Shown piece after piece: positions 4,235-47,386 of a stretch of DNA of 47,802 nucleotides. Made by a program: the position numbers and the translations under genes. This DNA comes from a virus. The notes under the pieces were generated by a model. It was given only the letters and a program-made list of their open reading frames with translations, made no database searches and was not told the origin of the DNA. The first letter of the stretch is position 1, and each line of letters begins with the position of its first letter. The DNA is taken from the IMG/VR virus record IMGVR_UViG_3300031834_000009, positions 1 through 47,802 of that record, one strand, 5' to 3'.

Positions 4235-4320
4235 AGGCCGGTAGCGCAATAGGCCAAGAGCGGTTGGGGCGCGAGAGTATCGCTAACCAATATGTGCGGG
4301 TTCGAGTCCCGTCCGGCCAC
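4235..4320 (+). tRNA. Atypical tRNA-like gene with an oversized anticodon arm
   Basis: Acceptor GGCCGG 4236-4241 pairs with CCGGCC 4313-4318, followed by A4319. T8/A9 are 4242-4243. The D arm is GCGC 4244-4247 / GAGC 4258-4261 with one mismatch and a GG-containing loop. The T arm is GCGGG / CCCGT with loop TTCGAGT 4301-4307. The anticodon stem GTTGG 4263-4267 / CCAAT 4287-4291 closes a 19-nt segment instead of 7. Inside it GGCG 4268-4271 pairs with CGCT 4281-4284, leaving a 9-nt loop CGAGAGTAT and an AA bulge. No anticodon can be assigned. It may be an intron-bearing or re-purposed tRNA. Confidence 0.5.
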
Positions 4321-11043: not shown

Positions 11044-11225
11044 AAACTGAATTAGGTGAATTACAAGACAGACTTGGTGGTCGCATAATTTTGGTTAAGG
11101 GCGAAAAGGGCCCTTGTGCTAAGTGTCCTGTGAAACAGCGTGGTGGGGTGGGCTTCATTTGTAAGGCACGCTTTCCCGCATTTGATTACCCCTGCCGCGG
11201 TAGGTTCGGTAAATATACCCTATGA
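11040..11225 (+). CDS. Small cysteine-containing protein (61 aa)
   Basis: The ATG overlaps the preceding TGA (ATGA) and the stop overlaps the polymerase start (ATGA), so it is locked into the operon. The product has CAKC followed by two more cysteines (FICKARF, YPCRGRF), a four-cysteine set that could bind one zinc. It is basic. Function unknown; an accessory of the neighbouring polymerase is a possibility. Confidence 0.65.
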   Translation: MKTELGELQDRLGGRIILVKGEKGPCAKCPVKQRGGVGFICKARFPAFDYPCRGRFGKYTL

Positions 11226-13234
11226 TTGTTCAGGACCTCAATGATCTGCCTCGCTTCGACGACCACGCTGTGGTCATTTGTGATGTTGAAACTACATCCT
11301 GGGATGATGCTGTACCTGCATTGAATCCGTTTCAAGGGCACCGAATTGCAGGTTTCGGATTAAGTACCGAGGATGGTTCCAGGACTTGGTATTTACCTGT
11401 ACGACATCACGGCGAGGAAAATCCGTTATTTGCGGATCAAAACTTGCCCTTACAGGCTGTTCAACACTACCTTCGGGACGTATTTGCTTGTCCTACACGA
11501 ACTTACGCGAATCATAATGCCAAGTTTGATGCGCGCTTCATGCATTTCGACGGGATTAAATTCCTAGGTGGTTTTCAAGATGTAATTGTGTTGGCGCGCC
11601 TTGTTTATGGGAGTCGGGATCGTCGTTTTGGAGGTACTGGGTATAGTTTGGAGGCCCTAGCCGCCGATTATTTAAATGTGCATAAGGATGCTCGTGTAAA
11701 AACCTACATTAAAGCCTTGAATACTAAGGATTGGGGCCGCGTACCAATTCGCCTCATGGGTGATTATGCGGAACAGGATGCGCGATTAACGGCTCGATTG
11801 CGTCTGCATCTACTTAAACACCTACCGGCGCCTAGTATAACAATCTGGGCCATCGAGCAACGAGTCTCCAAATTATTATTAGACAGTGAGATTTTCGGAA
11901 TTCCCCTTAATGTTGCGCGCTTAAAAAAGGATTATGTAATCCTTTTGGAACGTTTAATATATCTACTAAATGAGATAAAAGCGATTGCGGGTTATGAGGT
12001 AAATGTTGCCTCCTCCGACGAATTGGATGCCTTCCTGCAGGGTACCCTAGGTATTACGCCTACCGCATGGACCGACGATGGAAAACCTTCTTGGGCTATG
12101 ATGAGTTTAGAATCCCTCATCGTGCCGCCGGGCCTCCCGCCTAATTTAGGCCGCATGCTTAGTGAGGCCTCTCGGATTTCGCATATCACCAGTACATATT
12201 GTCAAGGGTGGCTCAACGCCCTAGGTACTGATGGCAGACTACATCCTGATTTTAGGCAATGGGGAACGGGCACGGGCCGACTCTCCTCAAGCGGGCCTAA
12301 TGCACAAAACTTCGATGACCTAGCCGAAGCCTGGATTGAGGAGGCCGATGGTCGTTGCTTGGTTTACTACGACTTATCGCAGGCCGAATACCGTGTATTT
12401 GGTCATTATACGAGCGCGCCTGTAATAATGGCGGCGTATAAGAAGAACATTGATACCGATTTCCATCAGTGGCTAGCAAACAAGTTAGGTGTGTCGAGAC
12501 AATTCGCAAAGACCATGAACTTCGCTCTTATTTATGGCATGGGCAAGAAAAAATTGATTGCCGCGCTGTCCGCCCTCCTAGCCATGTCCCTTCGGCAGGG
12601 CGATGATCGACTAGCGGTTAAATTGCACTCGATGCTTGAGGGTGGTATTGCGATGCAACGAGGCGCCGCAATGTTCGCCTCAAACGAAATGGCAGCCGCG
12701 GCAGAACTGATCTATAATATGTACCATCGCACAGTGCCTGAGATCCGGCAATTCCAACGACGCGTGGGTAACCTATGCCGAGCCCGCGGTTGGCTTAAAA
12801 ATTATTACGGGCGGGTGTATCGAATTGACGCTGCCCGATCCTATGTCGGGGTAAACTACGTGGTACAGGGCACCGTGGGTGATTATATGAAGGACCGTAG
12901 TACCGTGGTCCGAGAGTCCTGTCCCGACCTGGATTGTCACATGATCAATGAGGTACATGATGCCTCGATCTGGTCGGTGGCGCGTCCGCAGGTGGGCGAG
13001 TTCTGTCGGCGCAGTCATGTTATATTTGAAACCTCGCCATTTCGTATCCCTATGCGTGCGGACTGTAAGGTTTCTGCCGCCACCTGGAGCCAGATGGAGT
13101 CCTTGAATCGTGGCGCCACCGATGCTGAAGTTGAGACAGCTCTGGTTAAAAGTTTAAGCAATCCGGTTATGACGTGGAGTGATCGCGAATCCCGTAAACA
13201 GAAAGGTACTTCGAAGAAAGGACATGGTGTATGA
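11222..13234 (+). CDS. polA: Family A DNA polymerase with 3'-5' exonuclease
   Basis: A 670-residue replicative polymerase. The exonuclease domain has motif I D21-x-E23 (CDVETT), motif II in NHNAKFDARF and motif III GDYAEQDA. Polymerase motif A is YYDLSQAEYR with D384, and motif B is K430-TMNFALIY-G with F434 and Y438. Motif C reads H579-D580-A581, where most family members have HDE. F434 corresponds to E. coli Phe762, a residue linked to virulent phage lifestyles. There is no N-terminal 5' nuclease. It overlaps both neighbours by ATGA. Confidence 0.95.
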   Translation: MIVQDLNDLPRFDDHAVVICDVETTSWDDAVPALNPFQGHRIAGFGLSTEDGSRTWYLPVRHHGEENPLFADQNLPLQAVQHYLRDVFACPTRTYANHNAKFDARFMHFDGIKFLGGFQDVIVLARLVYGSRDRRFGGTGYSLEALAADYLNVHKDARVKTYIKALNTKDWGRVPIRLMGDYAEQDARLTARLRLHLLKHLPAPSITIWAIEQRVSKLLLDSEIFGIPLNVARLKKDYVILLERLIYLLNEIKAIAGYEVNVASSDELDAFLQGTLGITPTAWTDDGKPSWAMMSLESLIVPPGLPPNLGRMLSEASRISHITSTYCQGWLNALGTDGRLHPDFRQWGTGTGRLSSSGPNAQNFDDLAEAWIEEADGRCLVYYDLSQAEYRVFGHYTSAPVIMAAYKKNIDTDFHQWLANKLGVSRQFAKTMNFALIYGMGKKKLIAALSALLAMSLRQGDDRLAVKLHSMLEGGIAMQRGAAMFASNEMAAAAELIYNMYHRTVPEIRQFQRRVGNLCRARGWLKNYYGRVYRIDAARSYVGVNYVVQGTVGDYMKDRSTVVRESCPDLDCHMINEVHDASIWSVARPQVGEFCRRSHVIFETSPFRIPMRADCKVSAATWSQMESLNRGATDAEVETALVKSLSNPVMTWSDRESRKQKGTSKKGHGV

Positions 13235-33730: not shown

Positions 33731-33939
33731 TATTCGATTTCGCCATCCCAAATCTCAGGGTTTTCCACATGCAGGTGCGGCAAAGAACCGCGTTGTTCTT
33801 TTTCCAGTTCCCGTTGTAGGAGTCTTACCTGCTGACTCTTGCGCAGGGGAGGCTCCTCAATCATCTTATGCGCACGTGGGTGGACCAGCGCTTTACCCGC
33901 CGCCTTATCGTCTAAACTATCATGTTCCAGCGTTGGCAT
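33730..33939 (-). CDS. Small charged protein between terminase and portal (69 aa)
   Basis: Starts inside the terminase 3' end (20-nt overlap) and ends with TAATG coupling to the portal start. Highly charged and helical (KSQQVRLLQRELEKEQRG), no motif. Small genes in this position sometimes encode head accessory proteins; the role here is unknown. Confidence 0.55.
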   Translation of the reverse strand: MPTLEHDSLDDKAAGKALVHPRAHKMIEEPPLRKSQQVRLLQRELEKEQRGSLPHLHVENPEIWDGEIE

Positions 33940-35173
33940 CGGCAGTTTCCCTATCCCAACGGGTCTGTGTCCTGAACTGATCTATTGCCATGATTCCGTA
34001 GCGCAGCGCATCCATCGCGTGATCATTCCCGGGTGCGGGTTTCTCGCCCGCGGCCAGATGTTTCTCCGGGTAGGCGTAACCCTGGGATTCCGCGATCAAT
34101 GCGGTGCAGTCCGCGCCAATCTTTAATCGACCCGATGTAATTCGAGCACTTACCGCATCCACGCCCGACAGGATGTTGTTGTTTGCCGCCTTCACCCAAA
34201 TATCTGCGATCCGCAGATCCCGGATACTATCTGGACGGGATGGATCACAATACCAGGTCGTTCGATCAAACCGTTGGAGGGCCTTTATATGTTCGGTAAG
34301 CGGACATTTACTAATGTATCGCTCGTAGTAAATATGAATTATATCCGTATCCGAATCATATACCATCCCTAATGCCACAAATGGATCATTCCAACCGAAG
34401 TCCACTCCGCCAATAAACCGTCCATCCGGAATTTCAGTGTAAGGCTCAACTACACAATCCATCAATTCTGGATATACCAGACCCTCAGGCGCCGCCCACT
34501 TGCCCTCAAACAGGCGCGCCCGTCGGTGCCCGGTCAATCGACTGAGGGATGCCAGATACTCTGGGGTGATGGTCGGATTATCCTCAAACTTTGAGAATAA
34601 TTCCACCATTCGGCCCGTGTCCGCCCGCCGTCGGAGCCAATGCATCGGACTCCCGGGGTTACAGTCCGCGATCAACTGGTGATAGCCCATCCGCCCGTTG
34701 CGGCATCGCGTATCTAATTTTTCCCAATCATCCTCGAGGACCTCGGTAGCCTCAAAAACCCCGACCGCATCATATTCAGCCGACATTATTCGGTTGACAT
34801 TATCCAAACCCAGGACAACGATCTCCGATCCATTATCTAATTTGTATGTCGTGCGCGTCTGGCGGTGCGCCCCACTCAGGAGGCCTGAACCCGCGGGCAA
34901 GACCTTATTCTCCAGGGTCACCAACACCGATTCGTTCAGGGATGCCCGGGTAGCCCGCACCAGCAGGATACGACATTGCGCGTGGCGCATCGCCATCAGG
35001 TATAGTTTTTCCAGGACCGCCCGTGTTTTACCGGTGCCCGCGGGCCCGACGATCAATATCTCGCGCGCCTGCGTGCGGAATAACTGATCCGCCGCGCCAT
35101 AAGGTTTAAATGGCCGATGCGGATCATTGTTCCATGCAATGTCAGGCGCAGCCGCCGTCATTACCGCCGTCAT
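33920..35173 (-). CDS. terL: Terminase large subunit (ATPase and nuclease)
   Basis: A 417-residue packaging motor. Walker A GPAGTGKT is at residues 43-50 and a Walker B-like YDAVGVFEATE near 134-144. The RNase H-like nuclease has GGVDFGWNDP near 249 and the late acidic NDHAMDALRYG near 390. The length and motifs are normal. It starts through ATGA coupling with a small gene at 35170-35343. It cuts concatemers and powers DNA translocation into the prohead. Confidence 0.92.
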   Translation of the reverse strand: MTAVMTAAAPDIAWNNDPHRPFKPYGAADQLFRTQAREILIVGPAGTGKTRAVLEKLYLMAMRHAQCRILLVRATRASLNESVLVTLENKVLPAGSGLLSGAHRQTRTTYKLDNGSEIVVLGLDNVNRIMSAEYDAVGVFEATEVLEDDWEKLDTRCRNGRMGYHQLIADCNPGSPMHWLRRRADTGRMVELFSKFEDNPTITPEYLASLSRLTGHRRARLFEGKWAAPEGLVYPELMDCVVEPYTEIPDGRFIGGVDFGWNDPFVALGMVYDSDTDIIHIYYERYISKCPLTEHIKALQRFDRTTWYCDPSRPDSIRDLRIADIWVKAANNNILSGVDAVSARITSGRLKIGADCTALIAESQGYAYPEKHLAAGEKPAPGNDHAMDALRYGIMAIDQFRTQTRWDRETADANAGT

Positions 35174-35343
35174 ACCGTCTCAACCGGCGTGCCCGGCCCG
35201 TAAAGTTTTGTCGTGAACGGGAATCCCTCAGGCGACTGACCTTCTTCCAGGACTTCATACTCCGGCCGTAGCCTCTCGCCGATCGCCTGAAAGCGCATCG
35301 CTAATTGGTGAATCAGCAATTGTTTCGGATTCGGATTCGCCAT
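35170..35343 (-). CDS. Small protein coupled to the terminase (57 aa)
   Basis: The ATG at 35343 lies inside the upstream gene and the TGA overlaps the terminase ATG (ATGA). The product begins MANPNPKQLLIHQLAMRF and ends KLYGPGTPVETV. It is charged and partly helical. There is no strong ribosome-binding site, so the support is frame integrity plus the stop-start overlap. Without it, an 80-nt gap would separate the terminase genes. Confidence 0.45.
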   Translation of the reverse strand: MANPNPKQLLIHQLAMRFQAIGERLRPEYEVLEEGQSPEGFPFTTKLYGPGTPVETV

Positions 35344-35995
35344 GGATTAGTACCGGGCGTCGTGCGTTAGGCAATTCACTGGCCGAGAGTTCCATCATCT
35401 GGAGGCCCTCGCCTATCTTCCGCAACACCGTCGGTTCGTGCACATACTGGCGCACGATCTCAAATATCTGTTGCACCAGTCCATACACATCCGTGATGGA
35501 TAATGTGACGGATATTTTCTGGTCCACCCGAGCCATGGTCTCGACCAGCGCCCGCACCTCCTGGACCATCAGCATCACCGCGCCGCACATGGTAGGCGTT
35601 AACTGCGTGATGTCGAGGCCGTCCAACTGCATCATAAACGCCTCGGTGAACGCCCGCATCATTGCCAACTCATCCCGCAGGGATTTATAGTCTTCCGACT
35701 GGCGGTGTTTCTGATACGCCGCCGCCAAGGTACCCTTTCCCAGGACCTCACCGTACCGGCCTGCGTATGGGATAATCATTGTCCGCCGCTGACCGCCGTG
35801 CTTCTTACACTTGTCTGATCCGAGTAATGCCCAGGATCGACAGCGTATGCTGCCCTCATTCCGTAACCGCGCATTGCATCGAACGCGTCCATCCTCCTGG
35901 GATGGGAACTCGGACTCATCGCCTGGGGCACATGTATGCGGGCCGGTGGGTGGCGAGATATAGGGCGTTGAATGGCGCTTACGGGATTGTTGCAT
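35255..35995 (-). CDS. Putative terminase small subunit (246 aa)
   Basis: First gene of the leftward structural operon. Residues about 37-70 hold RCNARLRNEGSIRC...SDKCKKHGGQ, a cysteine/histidine block common in phage terminase-associated proteins, followed by a long helical region and an acidic Ser-rich tail. Placement just upstream of the large subunit makes small terminase the best guess. A DNA-binding transcription factor is the alternative. Confidence 0.55.
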   Translation of the reverse strand: MQQSRKRHSTPYISPPTGPHTCAPGDESEFPSQEDGRVRCNARLRNEGSIRCRSWALLGSDKCKKHGGQRRTMIIPYAGRYGEVLGKGTLAAAYQKHRQSEDYKSLRDELAMMRAFTEAFMMQLDGLDITQLTPTMCGAVMLMVQEVRALVETMARVDQKISVTLSITDVYGLVQQIFEIVRQYVHEPTVLRKIGEGLQMMELSASELPNARRPVLIHGESESETIADSPISDALSGDRREATAGV

Positions 35996-36071
35996 GATCC
36001 TATACTTTTTGAACTCGCCAATTTTACGTGGGAAAACGGGATCGCGCTATCTGCATTGCGCGATAATAACC

Positions 36072-36420
36072 TTTCTCTGCTCTATATTAAATAGATTCGC
36101 GCAGATCATATTGATATATGCGCATATATCAATGCGCGAATATGAGCGCGCGAATCATATTGATGCATGCGCATATATCAATGCGCGAATATGAGCGCGC
36201 GCTGCGCGCTGCGCGCGAATCATATATCAATGCGCGAATATGATTGCGCGCAATCATATATCAATGCGCGAATATGATCGCGCTGCGCGCTGCGCGCAAT
36301 CATATATCAATGCGCGAATATGATCGCGCTGCGCGCTGCGCAATCATATATCAATGCGCGAATATGATCGCGCTGCGCGCAATCATATTGATATATGCAT
36401 ATATTGATGAGCATATATAA
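36072..36420. repeat. Palindromic tandem repeats in the structural operon leader
   Basis: About six imperfect copies of a 38-60-nt unit built from AATCATATATCAATGCGCG, AATATGATCGCGC and runs of GCGCGCTGCGC. Each unit contains inverted segments (ATCATAT with ATATGAT). A perfect 24-nt palindrome centred on TATATGCGCATATA lies at 36110-36133. They are downstream of the leftward promoter, so they form a highly structured untranslated leader as RNA or cruciform-prone DNA. Packaging, replication or regulatory roles are all possible. Confidence 0.7.
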
Positions 36421-36443
36421 GCGCGAAATACACAATCATCTAT

Positions 36444-36472
36444 ATTATAATGCTTCGCGCGCGCTTTGTCAA
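36444..36472 (-). promoter_or_regulatory. Consensus sigma70 promoter for the structural operon
   Basis: On the minus strand, TTGACA (36472-36467) and TATAAT (36449-36444) are both perfect and separated by exactly 17 nt. Transcription would begin near 36437 and run left through the palindromic repeats to the first gene at 35995, giving a leader of about 440 nt. The GT in its -35 element is one of the few breaks of the dinucleotide rule in this block, suggesting selection to keep the promoter. Confidence 0.85.
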
Positions 36473-37417
36473 GAGAAAAATCATGATTTTTGAAAAAATT
36501 TTTTTGATGCAATTCTCATGCCACAGAGAAGATTTTAGAAGAAAAATATATCATATTTATCTATGCACATATCTATATATCTATTTACTATTATTCTTTC
36601 ATTCTTCTTCTTCTTCTTCTCGCTTGCTTTTTTTGCTTGCTTGCTATCTAGCAAGCTCTGCGATGCTATAAATAGCAATAGATAATTAGATATTCGCATA
36701 TATCAATATAAGCATATAAGATAAGCAATGCTCAATTGTCTAACATATTCGCATATTCGCATATAATGATATATGCGCAGCGCGCAGCGCGCTGCTTGCT
36801 TAAATCATTATATATGCATATGTGAATATGATATAAATGCTTTATTTATAAGCGCTTATATGCTTAAAATATATTTTATTTTTCTATTGATTTTTCTGCG
36901 CGATTGCTCGATAATGCTTATAGAAGATAAGAATAAAAGCGCTTGATAGAAGCAAGCGCAGCGCGATCGCGAATAAGCTAAAGCGCAAAGAGAAGCTCTT
37001 TAAAATCTGATAGCGATATGATCAAAGCAAAGCGAGCTATTCGAATCAAGCGCAGATTCTCGCATAGATTCAAGCAGCATAGCGCAGCGCAAAGCTTATC
37101 AGAGCAGAGCATCGCGAAATAAGCAAAGCAATGCGCTCGAGCTCGAATCGCAAAGCAGAAAGCAGAAAGCAAGCAGCGCTCTAGAAGCAAGCAATCTTCT
37201 TTCTCAATAGATTTATATGCGATTGCGAAAGATTCTTGCAATAGCAGCTTGAGCGAAGCGCGCATTAAAGCGCGATGATCGCAGAGCGAAGCAAGCAAGA
37301 GCAGCGCTAGATTTATTCGCTATCAATGAGCAGCAAGCAAGCGCAGAGCAGAAGCGCGCTTGCTTCTATTCTCTGCGATCATTAGAGCGCTCAATAGAGC
37401 GCAGAAAGAAGAGAGCA

Positions 37418-37897
37418 ATGAAAGAAAAAAGCAAATTGCGAGAGCTTTGCGCGCGCAATAGATGCGCGAGCAAAGCAAATTGCATATGCAGCGCTTCGCG
37501 CGCTTGCGAGAAAATGAGCAATCTCAAGCAATGCGCGAGAGCGCTTTACGCGCAGGCGCATGAAGAGAGAAGCGCTGAAATGCGAGCGCTTCATGAAATC
37601 TGCGCAGCGCAGCATAAGCGCATGAAGAGAGAAGCGCTGAAATGCGAGCGCTATCAGCGCATTTATCTCGATGCGCAATTTGAAGAGAGAAGCGCTGAAA
37701 TGCGAGCGCTTTATAGAATCTACGCAGCGCAGCATAGGCGCATGAAGAGAGAAGCGCTGAAATGCGAGCGCTATCATCGCATTTATCTCGATGCGCAATT
37801 TGAAGAGCGATCTCTGATATGCAAGAGCATATCGCAGCATGATTTTAGCAGCTATAGCGCAGAGCAGCGCGCAATATCAAAGCGCAGCAAGCGCTGA
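37418..37897 (+). CDS. Doubtful open frame inside the low-complexity block (159 aa)
   Basis: The frame encodes a highly helical, Arg/Glu/Ala/Cys-rich protein with two 40-residue repeats (EERSAEMRAL...REALKCERY). It contains no Gly, Pro, Thr, Val or Trp, which follows directly from the DNA composition. The codon differences I see between the two repeat copies all change the amino acid, arguing against purifying selection. Only a weak AAGAGAG precedes the ATG. It is probably a by-product of composition; a real repeat protein cannot be fully excluded. Confidence 0.2.
   Translation: MKEKSKLRELCARNRCASKANCICSASRACEKMSNLKQCARALYAQAHEERSAEMRALHEICAAQHKRMKREALKCERYQRIYLDAQFEERSAEMRALYRIYAAQHRRMKREALKCERYHRIYLDAQFEERSLICKSISQHDFSSYSAEQRAISKRSKR
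37561..37800. repeat. Two tandem 120-bp repeats with four copies of a 30-bp core
   Basis: The copies 37561-37680 and 37681-37800 differ at only a few bases. A 30-nt core starting TGAAGAGAGAAGCGCTGAAA occurs at 37561, 37623, 37681 and 37743, so each 120-bp unit is itself an ancient duplication with 62/58-nt spacing. A partial further copy begins at 37801. Confidence 0.85.
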
Positions 37898-37997
37898 AAG
37901 CAGAGCGCAGAGAATAGAAGCAAGCGCGCTTTAAGATGCTATCGCATCTAAGCGCGAATTATCAGAGCGCGCAATAGCGCGCAGAAAGAAGCATAGC

Positions 37998-38189
37998 ATG
38001 AGCATGAGCATCGAATTATTGAAAGCAAGATTGCTGATCGCAAGCGAGAAAGAATTAAATGCAATCAAGCATCTAGCAACCGCGAGAGCGCAGAGCGCGA
38101 AAGCGCAGCAAGCGCTCGATATTTTCATCGCAGCGCAGCAGAAGCAGCAAGCAGCAAGCGCAGCGCAGAAGAAGCAGCAAGCAGCTTGA
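37998..38189 (+). CDS. Doubtful open frame, coiled-coil-like (63 aa)
   Basis: Encodes an Ala/Gln/Lys-rich helical peptide (AKAQQALDIFIAAQQKQQAASAAQ). The ATG lacks a Shine-Dalgarno site because GG is absent here. One ACC gives a single Thr. Like the frame at 37418 it may merely reflect the base composition. Confidence 0.2.
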   Translation: MSMSIELLKARLLIASEKELNAIKHLATARAQSAKAQQALDIFIAAQQKQQAASAAQKKQQAA

Positions 38190-38241
38190 GCAAGCAGAGC
38201 AGAGCAAGCGCAGCGCGCAGAGCAAGCGCGCTGCGCTTGCT

Positions 38242-38382
38242 GAGCGCGCAGAGCGCGCAGAGCGCGCAGAGCGCGCAGAGCGCGCAGAGCGCGCAGAGCG
38301 CGCAGAGCGCGCAGAGCGCGCAGAGCGCGCAGAGCGCGCAGAGCGCGCAGAGCGCGCAGAGCGCGCAGAGCGCGCAGAGCGC
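38242..38382. repeat. Fifteen perfect 9-bp repeats GAGCGCGCA
   Basis: Fifteen exact tandem units 38242-38376 plus a partial GAGCGC, then TTTTATTTATTTTTTGCG. A multiple of three, the array is open in several frames (Ser-Ala-Gln or Glu-Arg-Ala repeats). It marks the right edge of the composition-biased block. Such exact short arrays grow by polymerase slippage and may vary between isolates. Confidence 0.95.
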
Positions 38383-38415
38383 TTTTATTTATTTTTTGCG
38401 CGCCCGCGCCGCGCT

Positions 38416-39347: not shown

Positions 39348-39734
39348 ATGCAGGATAGTACCCGTCAAAAGCGTGAAGAGGCGCGAGCTCGTGAACGTGC
39401 GGCGCACCAGGCGCGGATTGAAAAAGCACGGTATATCCCCACCCTCAAGGATCGTGCCCACAATTTTGAGTTTCGCCTCCATGAGGAACGGCTCATGTTG
39501 CGCCTTTCACGCCAGCAACTTGTCATCGCCGAGGCACAATTCGCCCGCCTTCAGACTCTGATCCCTCGCCTTCGAACCGTGATCCCGGAGCGGGAAAAGT
39601 ATATTGCTTCCCTCACGGCTTCCTGCCTTACCCTACAGCCACAACTGGAGCGGGAGGTGCATATCAGAAAACTGCAGGCCAATATCCGACGCCTTCAGCG
39701 GCAAATCGCCAATGAGGAACGGAAGAACGCATAA
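39348..39734 (+). CDS. Coiled-coil protein (128 aa)
   Basis: Almost entirely charged helix from REEARARERAAHQARIEKAR to the C-terminal KLQANIRRLQRQIANEERKNA, with heptad-like leucines. No catalytic motif or membrane segment. Ribosome-binding site ACAGGAGACAGCC. Likely an early protein that works by binding another protein; the partner is unknown. Confidence 0.65.
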   Translation: MQDSTRQKREEARARERAAHQARIEKARYIPTLKDRAHNFEFRLHEERLMLRLSRQQLVIAEAQFARLQTLIPRLRTVIPEREKYIASLTASCLTLQPQLEREVHIRKLQANIRRLQRQIANEERKNA

Positions 39735-39740
39735 GCCGAA

Positions 39741-39758
39741 ACCCGCCTTGCGGCGGGT
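39741..39758 (+). other. Intercistronic hairpin, related to 40066-40083
   Basis: ACCCGCC 39741-39747 / GGCGGGT 39752-39758 with a TTGC loop. The preceding TAAGCCGAA is identical to that before the hairpin at 40066, so the two are copies. A second stem of GGTCGGTT and AACTGACC follows at about 39757-39774. Confidence 0.6.
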
Positions 39759-39825
39759 CGGTTGGAACTGACCACCCAGCCCTGATGATGGCAGGTCAAG
39801 GCAACGAGAGACAGGAGACAGAACG

Positions 39826-46796: not shown

Positions 46797-47171
46797 ATGG
46801 CTGATTCAGAGGACAAATGCCCAGGCTGCGGAGCACCGCTGAAGGAGTTGGAACATGTTCGAGGCACCACGTGCGTTACGCATTATTACGAGTGTGGGAC
46901 AGTAGACTGCCGCAACGAGTGGCCATTTTGTGGCATACCATGCACCAACAAGAGCGCGTATGTCGGGTTCAGTAAAGAGTGTTACCGGCGGCAACTCGTC
47001 GCAGCGAAGACAGTGGTGAAGATGGTAATAGAGTTGGCGCGACTTGCCGCACCATTGCCAGGCAATATAGCTCCGTTCACGGTATGCATCCATCCAGATT
47101 TTCAGAGGGTTTTCTCTGAAATTGTAAAAGCCAGCAGGGCGGTAATAAGTGGAGAAGGAGCAAGACGATGA
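46797..47171 (+). CDS. Zinc-ribbon early protein (124 aa), full copy of the truncated gene at 1-191
   Basis: The N-terminus CPGCGAPLKEL...CVTHYYECGTVDCRNEWPFCGIPC gives a zinc ribbon similar in pattern to Lar-type restriction-alleviation proteins. A helical segment (VVKMVIELARLAAPLP) and SGEGARR end follow. Its last 63 codons correspond to 3-191 of the window. Anti-restriction activity is only suggested by the ribbon pattern. Confidence 0.65.
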   Translation: MADSEDKCPGCGAPLKELEHVRGTTCVTHYYECGTVDCRNEWPFCGIPCTNKSAYVGFSKECYRRQLVAAKTVVKMVIELARLAAPLPGNIAPFTVCIHPDFQRVFSEIVKASRAVISGEGARR

Positions 47172-47309
47172 CTAATCCAGAGGACAAATGCCCGCTGTGT
47201 GGGGAGCAGATGCTGAGTCTGGCCTGCCCCGGCGGGTGTTTCACTGCGACGGCGCACGAGGTTGACGGGGTAACGTGCAAGCTCCGCCAGTTGGCCAAGG
47301 CAAAGACAG
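46981..47309 (+). repeat. Second copy of the window's first 330 bases
   Basis: 46981-47105 is identical to 1-125; the first mismatch is at 126. From about 200 onwards identity falls to roughly 80 percent by eye and ends near 329. The repeat covers the 3' half of one gene and the 5' part of the next. Either a tandem gene-pair duplication or the point where an assembly was cut in a repeat. Confidence 0.85.
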
Positions 47310-47386
47310 AGATCGACCGGCTGAACAAGCTCGTCGCCAGCCTTTGCAAGAAGATTGGTGATATCCCGAAGGGAGAAGGAGAATAA
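47168..47386 (+). CDS. Small zinc-ribbon protein, paralogue of 188-424 (72 aa)
   Basis: ATGA junction start. Same CPLCGEQMLSLACPGGC N-terminus as the protein at 188, then a helical tail KTEIDRLNKLVASLCKKIGDIPKGEGE that looks native (coiled coil), unlike the tail of the other copy. Zinc-binding adaptor of unknown role. Confidence 0.65.
   Translation: MTNPEDKCPLCGEQMLSLACPGGCFTATAHEVDGVTCKLRQLAKAKTEIDRLNKLVASLCKKIGDIPKGEGE

Follow-up and report, generated by a model that had tools for sequence, protein, structure and literature searches.

A 2.3-kb zone in the genome of an uncultured tailed phage with HK97-type head genes almost completely excludes the dinucleotides GG, CC, AC and GT. Within the window, by which we mean the whole 47,802-nt stretch of DNA that was analysed, these four occur only 16 times between positions 36072 and 38402 (AC nine times, GT three times, GG and CC twice each), as against approximately 537 times expected from the base composition of the zone (observed/expected 0.03), while in 200-bp bins across the remaining window this ratio stays between 0.65 and 1.31. 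Dinucleotide odds in the zone are 0.01 for GG, 0.02 for both GT and CC and 0.06 for AC, with GC at 3.1, CG at 1.7, AT at 1.6 and AG at 1.35; outside it, the same genome has ratios of 1.03 for GG, 1.07 for CC, 0.83 for AC and 0.86 for GT, which is no depletion. The largest distances from one violation to the next (726, 360, 342 and 323 bp) all lie within the zone, and the maximum outside is 34 bp. When 550 kb of other viral DNA was read in 300-bp windows, the minimum ratio was 0.50 for these four dinucleotides and 0.21 for any pair of dinucleotide classes.

The rule is that G is followed only by A or C and that C is preceded only by G or T. It is symmetric under reverse complementation, and the zone can equally be written by stringing together the tokens GC, GA, TC, A and T without restriction. 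Each of the 36 trinucleotides and 108 tetranucleotides that the rule allows is present, so the rule is strictly nearest-neighbour and nothing beyond two bases is needed to describe it. It is obeyed alike in open reading frames, in unique, AT-rich and hairpin-forming DNA and in a GC-rich array. An earlier note on this DNA had counted about 16 occurrences where random DNA would give several hundred, a violation-free stretch at roughly 36829–37547, a strand-symmetric grammar that belongs to the zone as a whole and not to one repeat, and flanks free of the rule. The exact counts agree with this picture: the gap runs from 36822 to 37548, the grammar matches exactly, and the 200-bp dinucleotide count that the note proposed rules out an ordinary frequency of the four in the zone. 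Its description thus stands as far as it went, having missed the promoters, the small open reading frames, the mostly conserved exceptions and the keeping of the rule despite sequence turnover.

A terminase search returned four contigs that belong to this virus or to a sister virus, and the relatives compared here are L009/L041 (IMGVR_UViG_3300031997_000029), L010 (3300032053_014803) and L012 (3300032053_014037). L009, L010 and L012 extend into the zone and follow the rule, which is the depletion in related contigs that the earlier note had suggested looking for. L012 probably represents a different species, as its flank identity is only 86%; its 174 bp of zone hold one violation. L009 continues across both ends of the window, which makes the map effectively circular and means that the zone does not lie at a window end. 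The window ends themselves (1–343 and 46981–47322) are near-duplicates, 93.6% identical over 344 bp, a variant overlap of the circular map. The right edge of the zone is abrupt, at 38402/38403, and the left edge is ragged, with positions 36040–36069 free of violations in this contig and not in L009 or L010. L010 also contains a block of 35–40 bp (L010:505–550) with about six rule breaks and no match in the window, possibly a recent insertion that the rule has not reached.

Table 1 Features of the zone and its flanks (positions in the window).
Feature	Position	Strand	Remark
Zone excluding GG, CC, AC, GT	36072..38402		16 exceptions
Tandem hairpin units, ~46 bp, about six copies	36110..36390	-	RNA fold z -3.6
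Predicted leftward promoter, TTGACA-17-TATAAT	36444..36472	-	12/12 sigma-70 consensus matches
Candidate rightward promoter, CTAACA-16-TATAAT	36740..36767	+	10/12 matches
36-bp inverted repeat, 81%	36741..36833		
Segment C, nearly unique, unstructured, violation-free	36831..37377		
Segment between 29-bp inverted repeats (97%)	37352..37931		carries ORF D
ORF D, 159 aa	37418..37897	+	leader AGAAAGAAG; two 120-bp repeats; coding plausible
Two 120-bp repeats in ORF D, 95% identical	37561..37800	+	
ORF E, 63 aa	37998..38189	+	same frame in L009
9-bp array AGAGCGCGC	38240..38382	+	
Terminator-like hairpin with T-rich tail, right zone edge	38367..38400	+	count of such sites in the region not above chance
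Presumed small terminase, flanking gene	35255..35995	-	by position only; no family match
Terminase large subunit, flanking gene	33920..35173	-	

The zone sits at the divergence point between the leftward late genes of the terminase side and a rightward arm (Table 1), and both the sign of the GC skew and the coding strand flip there. The recognised genes to its left, read leftward, are the presumed small terminase, the large terminase, portal and major capsid protein; the rightward genes to its right, continuing round the map, encode an SNF2-type helicase, a methylase, a primase-helicase, thymidylate synthase, DNA polymerase and ligase. With predicted sigma-70 promoters placed between opposed gene arms (12 of 12 consensus positions leftward, 10 of 12 rightward), the zone is by its layout a phage divergent control region, and a role as an origin or packaging site would be compatible with a location flanked by the terminase and replication arms and with the GC-skew minimum. 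A distant relative, Siphoviridae sp. ctIqW946 (MW202657), likewise has opposed arms that meet beside the terminase genes and carries the same kinds of replication genes, but its arms abut or overlap without such a zone, which makes the zone look like a lineage-specific addition at the switch point. Other features of the window include a type II hammerhead ribozyme (39734–39800, plus strand; Rfam RF02276, 42 bits), which follows a small ORF approximately 1.3 kb to the right of the zone, and a phage tmRNA (3052–3359, plus strand; RF00023, 93 bits) that is not reported by ARAGORN and is followed by a weak tRNA at 4235–4320. A family A DNA polymerase (11222–13234, plus strand) gives a sub-threshold match to DpoZ (161 bits against a cut-off of 500), and no PurZ was noticed among the ORFs of the window.

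Within the zone, the hairpin units form the leader DNA that separates the leftward promoter from the genes of the terminase side. The predicted leftward promoter is conserved in L009 and, except for the last base of the -35 box, in L010. The candidate rightward promoter falls within approximately 180 bp that are identical in three contigs and overlaps a conserved exception. Segment C (547 bp) shares only about 1% of its 12-mers within itself and is no more structured than shuffles, which rejects a hairpin requirement as the cause of the rule; segments B and C together provide approximately 950 bp of essentially unique sequence. In L009 the interior of the segment between the 29-bp repeats (37378–37913) is absent and the arms form a hairpin. 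At 37914–37960 the window has a hairpin, GATGC-TATC-GCATC, and at the same place the relative (L041:9305–9350) has another, GCTTTGAT-ATG-ATCAAAGC, both of which obey the rule.

The aligned parts of the zone diverge between strains by 4–10%, against 0.17% in the adjacent 3 kb; divergence also rises to 4% in gene patches elsewhere in the genome that have probably recombined. Under neutrality, 60–67% of substitutions would be expected to touch a violation, and in five comparisons those that do so number 3 of 39, 10 of 53, 9 of 63, 0 of 29 and 0 of 17 (11–38 expected against 0–10 observed). The P values, 9e-9 to 8e-15, overstate independence, as the counts are partly dependent, with changes that are clustered and one violating block of L010 that contributes several. 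All five comparisons point the same way, and they argue that the rule is actively maintained. The exceptions are themselves mostly conserved (11 of 16): nine are common to all three contigs that cover them and two more are common to L009. Ten of the 16 lie in the AT-rich promoter core (36426–36830), and several conserved ones sit in promoter elements, including the AC in the -35 box of the predicted leftward promoter. The two shared with L009 sit in the Thr codon of ORF E; of the remainder, one is unique to the window and four are in ORF D, for which the relatives offer no comparison. Violations appear to have been lost through different base changes, for example GGG to GAG and CACAG to CGCAG (with polarity drawn from few sites), which speaks against any one mutational chemistry.

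The rule also extends over open reading frames. Coding by ORF E is well supported, since L009 keeps its frame through an in-frame indel and the synonymous replacement of GCGAGA by GCTCGC; for ORF D, coding is plausible. The two share a leader, GCGCAGAAAGAAG, and a 54-aa ORF found only in L009 carries one like it. None of the 159 residues of ORF D is G, P, T, V or W, for which the chance is approximately 5e-22 at the phage's own amino-acid frequencies, and the ORF has no significant match among phages or in Pfam, PHROGs or PADLOC. When both frames were recoded synonymously 5000 times with phage codon usage, ORF D gave at least 51 violations against four in the real sequence and ORF E at least 15 against two, which rejects amino-acid choice alone as the cause. 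The four dinucleotides correspond to the Gly, Val, Pro and Thr codon boxes, an explanation dismissed because their absence extends to every frame and to non-coding DNA. As recoding adds violations, the non-coding parts obey too and both strands are affected, we infer that the rule acts at the DNA level, above the protein.

We propose that the zone is a module specific to this lineage that combines divergent control with small genes: a predicted leftward promoter with its hairpin leader, a candidate promoter for the rightward arm, hairpins and small ORFs. Purifying selection at the DNA level would have purged from it, and would still be purging, 5'-GK-3'/5'-MC-3' (GG, GT/CC, AC) on both strands. 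The likeliest reason would be a DNA-acting factor that recognises GK/MC in the module: a nuclease, adaptation or modification system of the host, for example, or an enzyme of either phage or host that does harm at the control point. Each GK/MC step lost would bring a small benefit, and the survivors would be those that a promoter or a protein needs. That both members of each complementary pair are missing fits a reader of both strands, and because the rest of the genome is not depleted, such a reader would have to act only in the zone. The methylase of the phage resembles adenine methylases with longer sites (MboIIA, RsrI and CcrM), and we know of no established enzyme with GK/MC specificity. 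We infer selection rather than directed mutation; selection against GK/MC through a reader acting on this control module is the explanation toward which we lean, tentatively and with a confidence that falls somewhat short of even.

One alternative is that the zone is the first-entering or earliest-exposed DNA and a hotspot of CRISPR spacer capture, which would have lost all its PAMs (GG/GT or CC/AC) while its sequence turned over to escape spacers. PAMs may be as short as two bases and act on either strand, the zone diverges much faster than the neighbouring 3 kb, and the terminase genes of a named relative, Dagobah, lie next to its terminal repeat, which may place the zone close to one end of its genome. 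Phages depleted in PAMs have been described (Kupczok and Bollback 2014, PMC4246573; Pseudomonas type I-F, PMC12174588), and this is the nearest phenomenon that our searches of the open-licence literature returned; neither these nor our database searches found a described element with the grammar of the zone. In those genomes, too, a very short motif is scarce on both strands, which is ascribed to selection by a host system, but the depletion is modest and spread over the genome, whereas here it is near-total, occupies 2.3 kb with a sharp edge and involves two step types. The genome-wide depletion expected of PAM-avoiding DNA is not found (ratios of 0.83–1.07 outside the zone), the right edge is sharp rather than a gradient, and the DNA round the conserved exceptions, where PAMs would persist, varies least. 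To our knowledge no common PAM equals GK exactly, and we consider this explanation unlikely.

It is likewise improbable that a local deaminase, error-prone repair or templated patch synthesis keeps rewriting GK/MC in the zone. Strains do differ by clustered changes of 2–4 adjacent bases, and local divergence is high, but most changes fall at non-GK/MC sites and include transversions, removals occur through differing base changes, exceptions persist at promoters and the edge is sharp. A mutational process with several outcomes may lie behind the rule.

DNA shape is most naturally described in dinucleotide steps, and a step-level cause would explain both the symmetry of the rule and its independence of sequence class. 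The zone might exclude steps that favour the A-form and stay B-form, as a control or packaging complex, for instance, might require. In the solution studies summarised in PMC2687451, GG and AC are the A-philic steps once AG is moved to the B-philic class, and these are the two excluded step types; in the crystals of the same source, however, only GG is clearly A-philic and AC is neutral. The A-philic set is wider in another classification, a T4 study in which 53% of the dimers of ordinary plasmid DNA are A-philic. The match is also post hoc, one of 45 pairs of step types, and a bulk trait would not require near-zero counts. A-philic sequence makes no difference to the T4 packaging motor (PMC7672480), which weakens a link to 'scrunchworm' packaging, and a physical property of this kind strikes us as quite unlikely.

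Equally doubtful is that the phage or its host modifies DNA at GK/MC and that the control module evolved without modifiable sites. The phage does encode a methylase of the adenine or N4-cytosine type (882–1646), a nucleoside deoxyribosyltransferase and a second methyltransferase, but the nearest solved relatives of the methylase read sites of 5–6 bases, and the search for 7-deazaguanine genes, negative among the families covered in the phage, counts against such a scheme. We know of no case of two-base specificity on AC and CC.

A constraint on RNA, by which transcripts of the zone avoid GG, GU, AC and CC, could be imagined, given that the zone holds ORFs and hairpins as well as a leader and has a terminator-like site close to its end. 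A one-strand RNA rule need not be reverse-complement symmetric, though, and it is rejected because each complementary pair is missing as a whole, whichever way the DNA is transcribed. Leftward- and rightward-transcribed parts share the same rule, the untranscribed promoter core is mostly compliant, and the leader of the leftward transcript runs on into non-compliant genes, all of which leaves this idea very unlikely.

Among the causes put forward in the earlier note, avoidance of short motifs and a DNA property at a control site remain viable, and growth by slippage and untemplated synthesis fare poorly. Slippage or duplication from a rule-obeying seed, passively inherited, would account for the hairpin repeats, the 120-bp repeats and the 9-bp array, and part of the zone does resemble low-complexity or satellite-like repeat DNA in its tandem and hairpin repeats. 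Unlike such DNA, however, segments B and C are essentially unique; the internal copies expected of slippage are missing from segment C, which has not a single violation, and strains differ by substitutions that keep the rule. Slippage is refuted for segments B, C and E, and its chance as the general cause is slight. Untemplated synthesis is unlikely, since such a polymerase would have no reason for reverse-complement symmetry, and the rule extends over open reading frames. Phages lose restriction sites, including in early-entering DNA, and the zone resembles this in the loss of recognition sites from a particular part of the genome; restriction sites, however, are palindromes of 4–6 bases, whereas the unit here is two bases, and restriction-site avoidance is rejected because CGCG is found 67 times and none of the permitted 4-mers is missing, with GCGC, CGCG and GATC present or abundant. 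Primase-site avoidance was also considered; known primase sites are three bases long. An assembly or sequencing artefact, which the tendency of L009, L010 and L012 to break within the zone might suggest, is ruled out by independent contigs and deserves almost no credence, as separate contigs from several metagenomes and two distinct species agree, the flanks are continuous and the ORF E frame is conserved between L009 and the window.

Searches for further examples returned only the known relatives when viral contigs were scanned for the word pattern of the zone. No match was obtained for zone DNA among INPHARED phages, for segments C–E among plasmids, for the hairpin core or the terminase in GTDB genomes, or for the right-flank protein in viral contigs, where the helicase has relatives of only 28–30%. 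We know of no genetic element that keeps to a strict nearest-neighbour exclusion through kilobases of DNA, apparently coding sequence included, and of no class of phage divergent control regions with this grammar.

It is possible, although we would not call it probable, that a system reading DNA by a two-base code, G and then a keto base, acts locally on this phage control module, and that 2.3 kb of DNA, genes included, is kept in a reduced grammar as a result. If selection is the cause, DNA is being read in two-base units within a defined stretch of a phage genome, and this would represent a defence, a modification or a DNA-physical constraint of a new kind. The depletion of four dinucleotides also offers a simple compositional scan by which further cases may be sought.
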